Shown here: in pieces, positions 2,634 through 16,996 of the stretch
Layout of the letters: each line of letters begins with the position of its first letter
Position numbering within the stretch: the stretch's first letter is position 1
Source: Roseibaca sp. Y0-43
GTDB lineage: Bacteria; Pseudomonadota; Alphaproteobacteria; Rhodobacterales; Rhodobacteraceae
DNA length: 64,000 bases
Direction of reading: 5' to 3'
Assembly (NCBI RefSeq): GCF_020667835.1
Contig: NZ_JAFMPR010000004.1
Location: forward strand, 1-64,000
Notes under the pieces: generated by a model
The model's database searches: none
Seen by the model: only the letters and a program-made list of their open reading frames with translations
Told to the model about the DNA's origin: nothing
Translations under genes and position numbers: made by a program

Positions 2634-3515
2634 ATGCGGATAGCAGCCTTCAAGGGCTCGGCGGGTGAAGGGCTTGGCCTTGTCGAAGCCGGGGAAGTTT
2701 CGGTTTTGCACGAAGGTCCGGTGGGCAGTGCAGGCGTGGCGCTTCTGAAGCTGATCGAGGGCGGTGCGGCTGCACTGCAAGAGGCGCAGGCAAAGGCCGC
2801 AGACGCCCGCAAGCTGCCGCTTGCCGAGGTGACGCTTTTGCCGCCGGCGGTCTCTCGCCGTGCCGCGGTGATTTGCGTGGGCAAGAATTATCACGCCCAT
2901 GCCCGCGAATTCTTTGGCAGCGGTTTCGATTCGACCGGCAAGGACGAGATCCCGCCCGAGCCTGTCATCTTCAGCAAAGCAGGGTCGAGCCTTATCGGGC
3001 ACGGTGCCGCGATCCACGGCTCTTTGGACCCGACGCAGACGGTCGATTACGAGGGGGAGCTGGCGCTCATCATCGGGAAGCCTGCTCACAAGGTCACGCG
3101 TGACAATGCCTTCGATGTGATTTTCGGATACACGATCTGCAACGATGTCACGTCGCGTGAATTGCAGAAGCGGCACAACCAGTGGCTTGTGGGCAAAAGC
3201 CTCGATACGTTCGGCCCGCTTGGGCCGTGGATCGTGACCGCCGACGAAATGGGCGACATCACCCGGCAAACGCTGACAACCACGGTCAATGGCGAAGAAC
3301 GTCAGCGCGCGCCGATCAGTGATCTGATTTTCGACATTCCCGGCCTGATCGAGACGCTGAGCGCGACGATGACCCTTCAGCCGGGCGACATCATTGCCAC
3401 GGGCACGCCTGCCGGCGTGGGCATTGGGCATACGCCCCCGAAATACCTTGTTCCGGGAGACAAGGTTGACGTGACGATCAGCGGGATCGGGACATTGTCC
3501 AACCCCGTTGTCTGA
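2634..3515 (+). CDS. Fumarylacetoacetate hydrolase (FAH) family protein
   Basis: The 293-residue protein has the FAH C-terminal fold from about residue 75. Divalent-metal ligands are visible as E140 and E142 in DYEGELAL and D171 in TICNDVTSRELQ, with the usual GKSLDTFGPLGPW and GDIIATGTPAGVG motifs. Members of this family hydrate, decarboxylate or hydrolyse 2-oxo acids, for example in the breakdown of aromatic compounds or sugar acids; the exact substrate cannot be read from the sequence. GAGGAA precedes the ATG by 7 bases. It is the first gene of a run with tctC and tctA-tctB, so the enzyme probably acts on a carboxylate imported by that transporter. Confidence 0.9.
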   Translation: MRIAAFKGSAGEGLGLVEAGEVSVLHEGPVGSAGVALLKLIEGGAAALQEAQAKAADARKLPLAEVTLLPPAVSRRAAVICVGKNYHAHAREFFGSGFDSTGKDEIPPEPVIFSKAGSSLIGHGAAIHGSLDPTQTVDYEGELALIIGKPAHKVTRDNAFDVIFGYTICNDVTSRELQKRHNQWLVGKSLDTFGPLGPWIVTADEMGDITRQTLTTTVNGEERQRAPISDLIFDIPGLIETLSATMTLQPGDIIATGTPAGVGIGHTPPKYLVPGDKVDVTISGIGTLSNPVV

Positions 3516-12819: not shown

Positions 12820-13197
12820 GTGACAGATAATCCGTTGGACCAAGGGTATTTGCGTTCTCTGCTAGAGGAAGACGAGGTCGAGATGTCCGTCGTCTTCTCG
12901 GATCCGTCGCAGCCCGACAACCCGATGGTCTTTGTCAGCGACGAATTTCAGACCCAGACCGGCTATTCCCCCGCTGAAGCGCTGGGCCGAAATTGCCGTT
13001 TTCTGCAAGGGCCGGATACCAACCCGCACACGGTCGAGGCGATCCGCCAAGGCTTGCGGGCGCAGACGCGCTTCACCATCGACATTCTGAACTATCGCAA
13101 GGATGGCAGCGCCTTCGTGAACCGGCTGCGCATTCGTCCGATCTACGACGCCGATGGCCGGCTGATGTTCTTCGCGGGCGCGCAGAACCCGGTCTGA
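12820..13197 (+). CDS. Short LOV-domain blue-light photoreceptor
   Basis: Almost all of this 125-residue protein is a single LOV (PAS) domain. The flavin-binding core motif GRNCRFLQG (about residues 64-72) carries the cysteine that forms the light-induced FMN adduct, and the Asn and Gln residues that hold the isoalloxazine ring are present in NPHTV, NYRKDG and FFAGAQ. There is no kinase, HTH or other output domain, so it belongs with the short LOV proteins known from other marine Rhodobacterales. The start is a GTG preceded by a G-rich site. It lies between glpD and the end of the bufferin operon; its partner is unknown. Confidence 0.9.
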   Translation: MTDNPLDQGYLRSLLEEDEVEMSVVFSDPSQPDNPMVFVSDEFQTQTGYSPAEALGRNCRFLQGPDTNPHTVEAIRQGLRAQTRFTIDILNYRKDGSAFVNRLRIRPIYDADGRLMFFAGAQNPV

Positions 13198-13203
13198 GCG
13201 CGC

Positions 13204-13671
13204 CTAGCGGTCCAGCTTCAACGCATGGTCCAGCGACAGCCGCCCCGGCCCATGCGCGATGACGACCAGAAGGGCCGCCGCCCACAGGGCGTGGGTGATC
13301 CACGCCTCGGGGAAAACGAAAAGCTGGATCACGGCGGTCATCACCAACAACCCTAGTGCCGAGAGGCGCGACAACAGGCCCAGAACCAGCAACACCGGCA
13401 GAACATGCTCTGCGACGGTGGCCAGCACGGCGGCAATTGCTGGCGGGATGACGGGCAAGGCATAGACGTTTTCGAACAGGAAATAGGTCGAGTCCTTGAT
13501 CGTGATCCCGTCCACCTTGGTGCGCGCGGATTGCCAGAACACGGCGGCAGGCGCGATGCGCGCGACCAGAACGACGATGTCATGGGGCAGATGCTGGCCA
13601 AGCGCATTGGCTTTGCGAATCAGCGCGGCCTTGGGCGCGGGGCGTGCGGGGGCGTCGATGGACTGGGTCAT
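13204..13671 (-). CDS. DoxX-family membrane protein of the bufferin operon
   Basis: The 155-residue protein has four hydrophobic segments and DoxX-family features ([11 protein letters not shown] near residue 46, then [14 protein letters not shown]). DoxX proteins are small inner-membrane proteins often linked with thiol, sulfur or metal stress. The ATG at 13671 overlaps the end of the upstream bufC gene by 4 bases, so it is translationally coupled as the last gene of the bufA-bufB-bufC-doxX operon. It may support redox or quinone-linked steps of copper handling (inference from operon). Confidence 0.85.
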
Positions 13672-14405
13672 GCGGGGGTTCCTTTCCGGGCATCGGCAAT
13701 CAGGCCGTGGGTCAGCAACAGGGTCAGTGCAGCGGTGAGGTCGCCATGGCGCGCCGCCGCGCCAAGCGGCGCGCCGCCTTTCAGCGCTGTCAACACCGCG
13801 AAACTCGCCGGGTCCAGCGGCTCTACCACCAGTGCGAAATCGGGGCGGCGCGCGATCAGGGCGTGATCGGGGCCAGCCTTCAGCGCCATCTTGGGCGCGC
13901 CCGGTTGCTGGCCCTGCCATATCTGCACGGCCGGGTGCGGGCTTGCGAACAGATGCACGGACGGGTGCAGCGCAAGATGCAGGGCTTCCAGATCATCGAC
14001 GCCCAAGGCCGCTGGCGCGACCGGCGCGGCATCCGCCGCATGGCTGGCCCGCCCGCGCAAGTATTCCAGCCGCGCCACATCGGGCAAAAACGGCAGTTGG
14101 GCGACGGGTGCGAAGCCCTCCAGAAACGGCGCGAAGCTTTCACCCCAATGCAGAAGGACCGGGCCTTGCGGTGGGTCTGCGGCAAGATAGGCGCGTGCCA
14201 GTGCGGTGAAAAACTCGCCCCCCACAAGCCGCTCGACCACCGGAAAGCGTGCAGCCAGCGCCCGCGTCAGGCTGTGAAAGACGTTGTTGCGGTAGACCTT
14301 GAAGCGTTGGGCGATCTCTGCGGGGTTGGGCGCGGTCAGGCCATCGGGCGGGGCATCGGCCCAAAGCGCTGCGCGAAAGCCGTCTTGCAGCGCGGCGTGA
14401 TGCAT
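13668..14405 (-). CDS. bufC: MNIO partner protein (DUF2063/HvfC family), BufC
   Basis: The 245-residue protein belongs to the DUF2063 family, annotated elsewhere as a putative DNA-binding domain. Its N-terminal helical domain has the motif [24 protein letters not shown] (about 34-57), and the C-terminal half is a RiPP-recognition-like domain. Family work on MNIO systems shows it as the partner that presents the precursor peptide to the DUF692 enzyme. The ATG at 14405 lies one base after the BufB stop; another in-frame ATG at 14417 would overlap it. The 3' end overlaps the doxX start by 4 bases. Confidence 0.85.
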
Positions 14406-14406
14406 C

Positions 14407-15258
14407 TCAGGCGGCATCGGCTTGGCCCTTCGTTGCATGACCCAACAGGTCGGATGCGCGCGCGACCTCTGCCAGCAGCACGTCCAGCGCGGGCACATCA
14501 TTGTCCCATTCGATCAGCGTGGGCAGTGGCCCGGTGCGGTCCAGCACCTCGGCATAAAGCGCCCAGACCGGGTCAGCCACGGGCGCGCCGTGGCTGTCTA
14601 TCAGCAGCGGGCCAGAGGGCAATTCCTCGGTCTCATGCCCGGCCAGGTGAATCTCGCCCACGGCACCCAGCGGAAAGTCGGCCAGATAGGCGCGCGCGTC
14701 GAACCGGTGGTTGGTGGCCGACACGAACACGTTGTTCACGTCCAGAAGCAGGCCGCAGCCGGTGCGGCGCGTGATCTCTGTCAGGAAATCGGTTTCCGAC
14801 CAGCTAGAGGCCTGAAAGGTCACATAGGTGGCCGGATTTTCCAGCAGCATTCGCCGCCCCAGATGCGTCTGGACCTCGTCGATATGGGCGCAGACGGTGG
14901 CAAGGGTTTCATCGGTATAGGGCAGGGGCAAAAGGTCGTTCAGCCATTCCGCGCCATGGCTGGACCATGCCAGATGTTCGGAAAAGCTTTCGGGCTGGTA
15001 GCGGTCGATTAGCTTGCGCAGCCGGTCCAGATGGTCGCGGTTCAACCCCTGCGCGCCACCGATGGACAGGCCCACCCCGTGGATGGACAGCGCATGATCG
15101 GCGCGCAAAGCGGTCAGCATGGCATGGGGCGCGCCGCCATCGCCCATGTAATTCTCGGCATGGACCTCCAGAAAGCCAACCTGGCCCCGTCGCGCCATCA
15201 GGTCGTGGAAATGTTCCGGCTTAAAACCCAGCCCGGCGCGCTGTGGCAAATGTGGCAT
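14407..15258 (-). CDS. bufB: MNIO-family (DUF692) peptide-modifying iron enzyme, BufB
   Basis: The 283-residue TIM-barrel protein has the expected metal-ligand motifs: HGVG (H60), SEHLAW (E94-H95), LLEN (E140-N141), LDVNN (D173, N176), EIHLAGH (H204, H208) and EWDND (E250, D252). Multinuclear non-heme iron oxidative enzymes of this family convert cysteines of a precursor peptide into oxazolone- or thiooxazole-type groups. The precursor here is almost certainly the four-Cys BufA encoded upstream. The cytoplasmic enzyme would act before export of the peptide. A GC hairpin separates the gene from bufA. Confidence 0.92.
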
Positions 15259-15288
15259 GGAATCGGTCCTTTTGCTGTTCGGGAACGA

Positions 15289-15313
15289 GGGGGCGAGCGA
15301 TGCGCCCGCCCCC
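15289..15313 (-). terminator. Hairpin between bufA and bufB
   Basis: GGGGGCG (15289-15295) and CGCCCCC (15307-15313) form a 7-bp GC stem soon after the bufA stop. It probably lowers read-through so that the small substrate peptide is made in excess over its modifying enzymes. There is no uridine run. Confidence 0.5.
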
Positions 15314-15324
15314 GGATCGAGCGA

Positions 15325-15636
15325 TCAGGCGGGCGGCAGGTCGCGGTCCAGCGCTTCGAGCGAACCCATGCGCGCGGTGCCATCGGCCATGGCGGGCAGT
15401 TCGATATCCATGCAGGTGCCGGCTGCCACCAGTGTCCAGGCATTGCCTTGGTAATCCACGGTAGAGCTGCCCGCGCAGGACGTGCCGGGGCCAGCGGCGC
15501 AGTCATTGGCGCCTGCCAGCGACACGCCGAAGCATTTTTCCATATCAGCCGACTGGGCCTGTGCATGGCCTGCCGACAGGGTCAGCGCGGTGGCAAGCGA
15601 GGCAGCCAAGGGCAGGGCGAGGGTTTTCATGGTCAT
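15325..15636 (-). CDS. bufA: Bufferin precursor peptide (DUF2282, BufA1 type)
   Basis: The 103-residue precursor has a long Sec signal peptide (cleavage after HAQAQ, near residue 28) and a mature domain with exactly four cysteines, C35, C46, C54 and C75, in the conserved DUF2282 setting EKCFGV, NDCAAG, TSCAG and AGTC. In recent work on bufferins the central cysteines are modified by the DUF692 enzyme and the exported product binds copper (family knowledge). It is the first gene of the operon. CGGAG precedes the ATG at 15636, while the second ATG two codons later is too far from it. The promoter region with CGTTACG repeats lies just upstream. Confidence 0.92.
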
Positions 15637-15684
15637 CTGTCGAACTCCGATTTTGAAAGGGTGCGTGTTTGCAGTCCCACGAAG

Positions 15685-15734
15685 CGTTACGGGGCGGCGG
15701 TTCGGGTCGTTACGAAGCTCACGGTGACGTTACG
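15685..15734 (-). promoter_or_regulatory. Bufferin promoter with three CGTTACG repeats
   Basis: CGTTACG occurs at 15685, 15708 and 15728. Read leftward, the middle copy gives GTAACG, then 16 bases, then CGTAAC, the spacing of a SigF-type promoter, with transcription starting about 45 bases before bufA. The tandem arrangement at 23 and 20 bases may offer alternative -35 elements. It lies in the divergent region shared with the sigma-factor gene. Confidence 0.6.
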
Positions 15735-15781
15735 GCGTTGTGATCGCGCATTCACTTCTGGTCATCCTGCCGCATTCTTCT

Positions 15782-15809
15782 GTAACGTTTCGGCACCCCA
15801 GTCCGAATA
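15782..15809 (+). promoter_or_regulatory. SigF-type autoregulatory promoter of the sigma/anti-sigma genes
   Basis: GTAACG (15782-15787), 16 bases, then CGAATA (15804-15809) fits the GTAACC-N16-CGAA pattern described for the Caulobacter SigF regulon. It sits 10 bases before the sigma-factor ATG, so the sigma factor probably activates its own operon and makes a very short leader. Confidence 0.65.
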
Positions 15810-15818
15810 GAGGGCAAG

Positions 15819-16367
15819 ATGAGCGTGAACGACCTGGATGCCCTGGAGGATCTTATGCGCGCGGCCAATCGCGGCGATCAGGTTTCCTATCATCGCGTCC
15901 TGACCGCGATCACCCCGCTTTTGCGCAAGGTCGTGCACGCGCGGGGGTCCGCTTTGGGGCGCGAGGGTTGCGAAGACGTGTTGCAAGATGTGTTGCTTGC
16001 CATCCACCGCAAGCGCCACACATGGAACGAGGATCAGCCGTTGCGCCCTTGGCTTTATGCCATTGCGCGGCACAAGGTCGTTGATGCGTTCCGCGCGCGC
16101 GGAACGCGGATAGAGCTGCCGATCGACGCGTTCGCCGAAGGCCTGCCCGCCGCCGATGCGCCCGACCCGACCACGGGGCGCGACATGGAGAAAGTGCTGA
16201 ACGCGCTCGACCCGCGCGAGGCCGACATCGTCCGCGCCTTTGGCGTGAATGGCGAAACAACCGCCGAAACGGCGGCGCGGCTGAACATGAGCGAAGGCGC
16301 GGTGCGCGTGGCGCTGCACCGGGCGCTGAAATCCGTGGCGAAGCTGCGGGAAAGGATGATCGAATGA
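15819..16367 (+). CDS. sigF: ECF sigma factor, SigF-like
   Basis: The 182-residue protein has sigma region 2 (about 25-92, with GCEDVLQDVLLAIHRKRHTW and LYAIARHKVVDAFR) and region 4 (about 125-178, with GETTAETAARLNMSEGAVRVALHRALK). Its stop overlaps the start of the DUF1109 gene by 4 bases. Caulobacter SigF controls a bufferin operon and answers heavy-metal stress through the membrane protein NrsF. The same gene pair here faces a bufferin operon across a region holding matching promoter motifs, so the same circuit is likely. An RBS-like GAGGG lies 8 bases before the ATG. Confidence 0.88.
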   Translation: MSVNDLDALEDLMRAANRGDQVSYHRVLTAITPLLRKVVHARGSALGREGCEDVLQDVLLAIHRKRHTWNEDQPLRPWLYAIARHKVVDAFRARGTRIELPIDAFAEGLPAADAPDPTTGRDMEKVLNALDPREADIVRAFGVNGETTAETAARLNMSEGAVRVALHRALKSVAKLRERMIE

Positions 16368-16996
16368 AAACCGACGATCTGATCGCGGCGCTTGCCGCCG
16401 ATACCCTTCCGCAGCCCAAGGTCCGCGCGCAGGTGCTGCGTGCGCTGCCCGTGGGCTTGGCCGTGTCGCTGCTGGCTTTCGCACTGTTCTGGGGCGCGCG
16501 CCCCGATCTGGCGGCGGCGCTGTCGTCCTTGGCGGTGCTGAAAACCCTTGTGCCACTGGCAACGGTCGGCCTTGCTGCTGCGTTGGCGATGGCGCAGGTG
16601 CATCCTGCCACGCCGCGCAGGTTGCGCGGGGCGCTGTTGGTGGCGATGTTGGCGTTGGTGTTGCTCACGCTTGCCGTGTCGCTTGTGCAAGGCGGTGTGT
16701 CGGCGCTTGTCGCGGCCCTGTCCACGCCCTCGGCCGCCGTGTGCCTGCTGTCCATCCCGGTTCTGGCCGCGCCGCTGCTGGGAGCGTTGCTTTGGGCGCT
16801 GACCGCTGGCGCAGCCACCCAGCCACGCCTGACCGGCGCGGTTGCGGGGCTGATGGCGGGATGCTTAGCGGCGGCGATCTATTCGCTTTACTGCGACAAG
16901 GACATGGTGCTGTTCGTGATCCCCGCCTATTCAACCGCCATTGCGCTGGTTGTCGGGGCGGGCGCGGTCCTTGGGCCGCGTTGGCTGAAATGGTAG
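16364..16996 (+). CDS. nrsF: NrsF-type (DUF1109) membrane anti-sigma factor
   Basis: The 210-residue protein starts with a short cytoplasmic segment (residues 1-28) for sigma binding, followed by about six membrane helices. It has cysteines C127, C167 and C177. The pair C127/C177 is 50 residues apart, like the two functional cysteines I recall for Caulobacter NrsF, and could sense metal at the membrane. The gene is translationally coupled to the sigma gene. It should hold the sigma factor inactive until metal stress releases it. Confidence 0.85.
   Translation: MKTDDLIAALAADTLPQPKVRAQVLRALPVGLAVSLLAFALFWGARPDLAAALSSLAVLKTLVPLATVGLAAALAMAQVHPATPRRLRGALLVAMLALVLLTLAVSLVQGGVSALVAALSTPSAAVCLLSIPVLAAPLLGALLWALTAGAATQPRLTGAVAGLMAGCLAAAIYSLYCDKDMVLFVIPAYSTAIALVVGAGAVLGPRWLKW

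Follow-up and report, generated by a model that had tools for sequence, protein, structure and literature searches.

We examined positions 13204-16996 of a 64,000-nucleotide stretch of DNA from Roseibaca sp. Y0-43 (contig NZ_JAFMPR010000004.1; the whole stretch is called the window here), where the genes and regulatory features collected in Table 1 very probably make up a Buf1-type bufferin operon that is complete and governed by a divergent switch of its own, of the ECF16 (extracytoplasmic function) SigF/NrsF type. A first-pass annotation made from the bare sequence had proposed six genes here, and the open reading frames (ORFs) were all found where it had placed them, each encoding a protein that scores above the gathering cut-off of its Pfam family. 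The four bufferin genes lie on the minus strand and the sigma/anti-sigma pair on the plus strand, which bears out the proposed single bufA-bufB-bufC-doxX operon with a divergent sigF-nrsF pair. Because bufB and bufC overlap by 11 bp, bufC and doxX by 4 bp and sigF and nrsF by 4 bp, both operons look translationally coupled.

Table 1. Genes and predicted regulatory features of the bufferin locus (positions in the window).
Feature	Coordinates	Strand	Evidence
doxX-family membrane protein gene, 155 aa	13204-13671	minus	Pfam DoxX, E 7e-16; hydrophobic segments
bufC, DUF2063 partner protein, 249 aa	13668-14417	minus	Pfam, E 2.4e-24
bufB, MNIO (DUF692) iron enzyme, 283 aa	14407-15258	minus	Pfam MbnB_TglH_ChrH, E 1e-107
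bufA-bufB intercistronic hairpin, strong, GC-rich, without a U run	15289-15313	minus	folding z
bufA, bufferin precursor, 103 aa	15325-15636	minus	Pfam DUF2282, E 4.9e-24
bufA leader hairpin, GGG-AC-UGC-AAACAC-GCA-CCC	15659-15678	minus	bulged, short, about -6 kcal/mol
bufA promoter, -35 GTAACG, N16, -10 CGTA	15688-15713	minus	motif scan and comparison with relatives
Operator-like palindrome, TAACG-TCAC-CGTGA	15719-15732	minus	5 bp upstream of the bufA -35; comparison across bufA promoters
sigF promoter, -35 GTAACG, N16, -10 CGAA	15782-15807	plus	motif scan and comparison with relatives
sigF, ECF sigma factor, SigF/ECF16-like, 182 aa	15819-16367	plus	Pfam region 4, E 2e-11; region 2, E 4e-9
nrsF, NrsF-type (DUF1109) membrane anti-sigma factor, 210 aa	16364-16996	plus	Pfam NrsF, E 5e-36

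The residues of these proteins agree with the assignment. BufA, described beforehand as a four-cysteine DUF2282 precursor, has exactly four cysteines (35, 46, 54 and 75), each retained in at least 96% of 78 relatives, and inspection of its sequence points to a Sec-type signal peptide with a basic N-terminus, a hydrophobic core and an A-Q-A cleavage motif. BufB exceeded the cut-off of the NCBIfam equivalog MNIO_BufB (394 bits against 310), and its residues H60, H95, E140, H204, H208, D221, H223 and E250, which are at least 99% conserved in 81 relatives, are retained in an alignment to 3bww; among the relatives of BufB, structures have been solved for the DUF692 proteins 3bww and 8hci and for MbnB (7dz9, 7tcr). 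The sigma factor likewise passed the NCBIfam PRK12512 cut-off (209 bits against 198). In NrsF, C127 was present in all 70 relatives and C177 in 69 of the 70, and the two lie 50 residues apart, a spacing identical to that of C131 and C181 in Caulobacter NrsF. The locus contains what characterizes a Buf1 cluster, namely a four-cysteine DUF2282 precursor with a signal peptide and, in the same operon, a BufB-type MNIO, a DUF2063 partner and a DoxX protein; as in SigF/NrsF (ECF16) systems, a sigma factor gene overlaps a gene matching Pfam NrsF, whose product has the cysteine pair equivalent to C131/C181.

The claim that GTAACG-N16 promoters face both ways also held, since the paired motif occurs once per strand in the bufA-sigF gap. 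GTAAC-N17-CGWA matched twice in the 64 kb window, both times within this gap, where 0.19 matches were expected by chance and only 1 of 100 shuffles reached two. GTAACG by itself was not enriched in the window (11 found, 10 expected). It occurs three times on the bufA side, and the sole -35 among these is the copy at 15708-15713; that at 15685-15690 belongs to the bufA -10, and the degenerate arm of a separate palindrome, described below, accounts for that at 15728-15733. The GTAACN-N16-CGAA sequence required in front of sigF is present, the distances between -35 and -10 agree with those of published Caulobacter SigF and Sinorhizobium meliloti RpoE7 promoters, and a sigma-70 promoter scan gave no match. 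Across 66 divergent gaps (the window and 65 relatives), the bufA side carried the motif in 57, the sigF side in 65 and the two together in 56, where dinucleotide shuffles gave 0.6 for a single side and 0.005 for both. In the whole 3.03 Mb genome the strict motif matched eight times. The locus had also been proposed to be a self-contained system, and the genome search agreed with this: BufA, BufB and NrsF are each present in a single copy, and the other six promoter matches, which lie 5′ of a GST-like protein, a CysQ-like protein or a transporter-like ORF or within genes, all lack the bufA-side palindrome. We considered these six as SigF targets and set them aside as probable chance matches.

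Relatives of BufB were taken from 80 bacterial genome records, and the divergent arrangement of sigF-nrsF and bufA-to-doxX was present in 65 of them. The sigF-nrsF pair lies downstream in tandem in L040, L041, L048, L054 and L056, and for the other relatives either it was lacking in the retrieved stretch or the contig edge was reached. Given that this layout is widespread and that an equivalent has been published for Caulobacter, the locus is a further member of the known SigF/NrsF-bufferin kind. In Caulobacter crescentus/vibrioides the same six genes are arranged divergently (CCNA_03273 and 03362-03366, or CC3252-CC3257; nrsF, sigF and bufA1B1C1-doxX), with a shared GTAAC-N17-CGAA promoter, a four-cysteine DUF2282 precursor and an NrsF cysteine pair 50 residues apart. 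There, sigF-nrsF and CC3254-57 are preceded by GTAACC-N16-CGAA and NrsF C131/C181 control the regulon (PMC3511200); the locus forms the core of the SigF regulon and is induced by copper, cadmium and chromate (PMC3511200, PMC8224329), and a sigF mutant is copper-sensitive (PMC8224329). In the Caulobacter Buf1 peptide the two central cysteines are converted to copper-chelating thiooxazoles, with a disulphide between the outer pair (PMC12452194), and the sigma factor and NrsF genes are counted among the Buf1 cluster components. The copper role and the modification at Cys46 and Cys54 proposed in the first-pass annotation agree with this published system. The rpoE7-ecfR7/SMb20527-SMb20530 region of S. 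meliloti (ECF16) has the same divergent gene set behind GTAACA-N16-CGAA (PMC6180224). Whereas Caulobacter SigF also drives a second DUF692/DUF2063 operon and MsrPQ, the Roseibaca genome encodes one BufB and no MsrP. Its lone Oxidored_molyb (PF00174) protein (L090, 1144-2433) looks like SoxC of sulfur oxidation, not MsrP, and no SigF-type promoter precedes its gene, so that the SigF regulon of this genome is probably the bufferin locus alone. This Rhodobacteraceae-type genome of 3 Mb thus has the SigF/NrsF-bufferin arrangement in compact form and in one copy, and lacks both MsrP and another MNIO operon.

Two other known systems resemble the locus in part. The gold- and copper-induced GIG operon of Cupriavidus metallidurans and Legionella pneumophila is homologous (PMC5413113, PMC8224329) but belongs to another bacterial class, and the Legionella data favour RpoS over SigF/NrsF. 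The oxazolin/captophorin clusters (HvfABCX, fontiphorin) likewise combine an MNIO, a DUF2063 partner and a DoxX-type protein and make thiooxazole copper peptides (PMC13097082), but Hvf precursors have EGKCG repeats; the window locus has a DUF2282 precursor without such repeats and no HvfB equivalog, BufB falling below the HvfB cut-off (241 bits against 360).

By analogy with the published orthologues, membrane-bound NrsF, with its C127 and C177, would hold SigF at rest, and thiol-reactive metal stress, with copper the most likely and cadmium, chromate, silver and gold possible signals, would act on these cysteines and free SigF. The freed sigma factor would then transcribe both bufA-to-doxX and sigF-nrsF from the GTAACG-N16-CGWA promoters. 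BufB and BufC would convert Cys46 and Cys54 of BufA into 5-thiooxazoles, Cys35 and Cys75 would form a disulphide, and the exported peptide would bind surplus copper in the periplasm, a copper specificity that is suggested by homology. The inducing signal is the main uncertainty of this scheme.

Comparison of the bufA-sigF gaps brought out a further element, a palindrome with the family consensus WCACG-N4-CGTGA, i.e., (T/A)CACG-N4-CGTGA, just upstream of the bufA -35. In the window its left arm has one mismatch to the consensus and coincides with the surplus GTAACG that lacks promoter spacing. The arms scored 7-9 of 9 in 57 of 70 bufA promoters, at 4-6 bp from the -35 (exactly 5 bp in 42); one further promoter scored 6 and twelve scored 4 or less, while shuffled sequence reaches 7 in about 1%. 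Divergent, tandem and non-adjacent positions of sigF all go with the palindrome (L025, L029, L040, L041, L048), which is not found at the sigF promoter. As a held-out test that avoids circularity, 385 alphaproteobacterial genomes were scanned with the right arm and the SigF promoter alone. Among the 23 matches, the unsearched left arm (no or one mismatch in CACG) was present at all five bufA genes found, and also at a CcdA-like gene that precedes a TlpA-like one, at a secreted YHS-domain-like gene and at one other; the remaining 15 had at least two left-arm mismatches. A second scan of two samples, with both arms and no -10, gave 16 matches, which again included bufA together with the CcdA-like gene, a DsbD/ScsB-like gene and a stand-alone DoxX gene, the rest being probably chance. 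The non-bufferin genes are named here from reading their sequences rather than from profile searches. An intact palindrome is more often accompanied by a weaker -35, the -35 being GTAACG in 36 of 58 bufA promoters with the palindrome versus 10 of 11 without it, a trend whose numbers are too small for a claim of compensation.

Several of the non-bufferin sites carry more than the palindrome. The palindrome, a SigF-type promoter and a leader hairpin together precede the CcdA-like/TlpA-like operon (L119/L097; L130 around 5521), which adjoins another ECF sigma factor gene in an 8 Mb alphaproteobacterium. The same module stands ahead of the secreted YHS-domain-like gene (L129; L131 around 6409), in a genome that also has it at bufA, and the palindrome with a -35 precedes the stand-alone DoxX-family gene (L106; L132 around 6184).

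From the conservation of the palindrome we infer a second, dimeric DNA-binding regulator at WCACG-N4-CGTGA. As the site lies about 45 bp upstream of the predicted bufA start, this putative regulator is more likely an activator. A search for it by way of further copies of the palindrome within the genus identified none: those copies lie at the 3′ end of coding sequence or look like chance, and the neighbourhoods of the non-bufferin matches show no common regulator. The text of Kohler et al. (PMC3511200) makes no mention of palindromes, inverted repeats or hairpins, and we found no published description of the bufA-promoter palindrome or the bufA hairpins in the literature covered, part of it by way of citing papers.

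Two predicted RNA hairpins flank bufA. The first adjoins the predicted bufA transcription start. In 56 non-redundant bufA leaders the first 32 nt had a mean folding z of -2.21, with p < 0.05 in 54%, compared with a mean z of -0.04 and 5% in 168 control windows from the same loci. These shuffle tests were used in place of column-wise pair counts, since a MAFFT alignment of the leaders failed to register the stems. The stems differ from locus to locus (GAGGACC/GGTCCTT, GAAGGGC/GCCCTTC, GGAAGGC/GCCTTCC, GTGCCAGCC/GGCTGGCAT and GGGAACCG/CGGTTCCC) but the position of the hairpin, about 14-15 nt into the leader, hardly changes; this suggests that the leader is selected for its RNA structure and not its DNA sequence. 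The second hairpin lies between bufA and bufB, with a z of -1.99 in the window and a mean of -2.3 over 77 loci. An Rfam scan covering the intergenic region with the leader returned nothing beyond a sub-threshold chance match. Hairpins that bracket a gene in this way commonly stabilise the precursor message and lower expression of the downstream enzymes. We infer that the pair around bufA would raise precursor mRNA relative to the enzymes; the precursor message seems to be separately stabilised or stoichiometrically tuned. The palindrome and both hairpins go beyond the first-pass annotation and the published accounts covered, and with them SigF alone may not set bufferin expression. The wider reading, to which we give even chances, is that alphaproteobacterial bufferin promoters are a compound module, in which a dyad operator beside the SigF -35 is combined with start-site and intercistronic hairpins that set precursor abundance, and that this module is common to CcdA/TlpA-like, YHS-like and stand-alone DoxX genes of envelope metal or redox functions. 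The regulator of the dyad would perhaps be copper- or redox-responsive, and the anti-sigma switch would then be only half of the sensor.

Some results weigh against a bufferin operon run by its own SigF/NrsF switch. NrsF reached only 71 bits against the cut-off of 300 for the NCBIfam equivalog AntiSigF_NrsF, although it passed Pfam NrsF, and that cut-off is NCBI's naming threshold for a single protein and no defining feature of a SigF/NrsF system; BufC and DoxX were below the NCBIfam HvfC and HvfX cut-offs. With these cut-offs missed, NrsF, BufC and DoxX do not count as orthologues by NCBI's strict standard. The relatives share ancestry, so the counts among them are not independent trials. In S. 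meliloti, RpoE7 is unresponsive to H2O2, cadmium and chromate (PMC6180224), from which it follows that the activating signal may differ between species. Finally, the palindrome arm and the leader hairpin of the window are weaker than in relatives. The last point would fit a decayed or unexpressed remnant, which we find hardly credible given that none of the six reading frames is broken, that their starts overlap and that the catalytic residues, the four BufA cysteines, the two NrsF cysteines and both promoters are retained. A different view of the signal would leave operon and switch as they are and have SigF released by oxidative or reactive-chlorine damage to envelope thiols, metals acting only by oxidising the NrsF cysteines, and the bufferin would be one among the outputs of a general redox response of the envelope. 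The MsrPQ-type sulfoxide reductase in the Caulobacter SigF regulon would fit this, as would the link of DoxX homologues to oxidative or sulphur stress and the palindrome-promoter module ahead of the CcdA/TlpA-like thiol-redox genes (L119/L130) and possibly ahead of the DsbD/ScsB-like gene (L099/L133). However, the present genome has no MsrP, its SoxC-like protein having no SigF-type promoter, and chromate and cadmium induction in Caulobacter has been described as independent of oxidative stress; we regard this view as distinctly unlikely.

The palindrome itself could be part of an extended recognition sequence for SigF and RNA polymerase at strong output promoters rather than the site of a regulator. 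Its near-constant distance of 4-6 bp from the -35 speaks for this, and in the held-out scan it accompanied SigF-type promoters of plausible target genes. Yet a dyad with a free 4-bp centre that is absent from the sigF promoter is not readily explained in this way, nor are the twelve bufA promoters with a good -35 and -10 where the palindrome is missing (score of 4 or less), and dyads are typical of dimeric regulators, so that we consider extended recognition unlikely and prefer a second regulator acting beside SigF.

Two further candidate sites were seen in the same genus. The sequence TCACGGCTGCGTGA recurs in same-genus genomes (L162-L168), and in several of these a gene ends in it, with ...DVTAA-stop as the encoded terminus, so that it probably reflects coding constraint and not an operator. 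The palindrome TCACG-N3-GCGTGA (L138 and L158, about position 1500) has no SigF-type promoter and is retained in two genomes of the genus, where it follows the end of one gene and precedes a downstream gene whose start resembles a signal peptide.

The gene sigF may start at the ATG at 15855, behind GGAGG at 15845-15849, instead of at 15819: a start codon is missing from the corresponding position in the nearest relatives, L003, L004 and L009, and the sigF -10 is just 11 bp from 15819. On the far side of the locus, convergent with doxX, positions 12820-13197 of the plus strand encode a short LOV blue-light photoreceptor of 125 aa with the motif NCRFLQ, which matched the solved blue-light photoreceptor 4kuk over its full length (E 2e-65).

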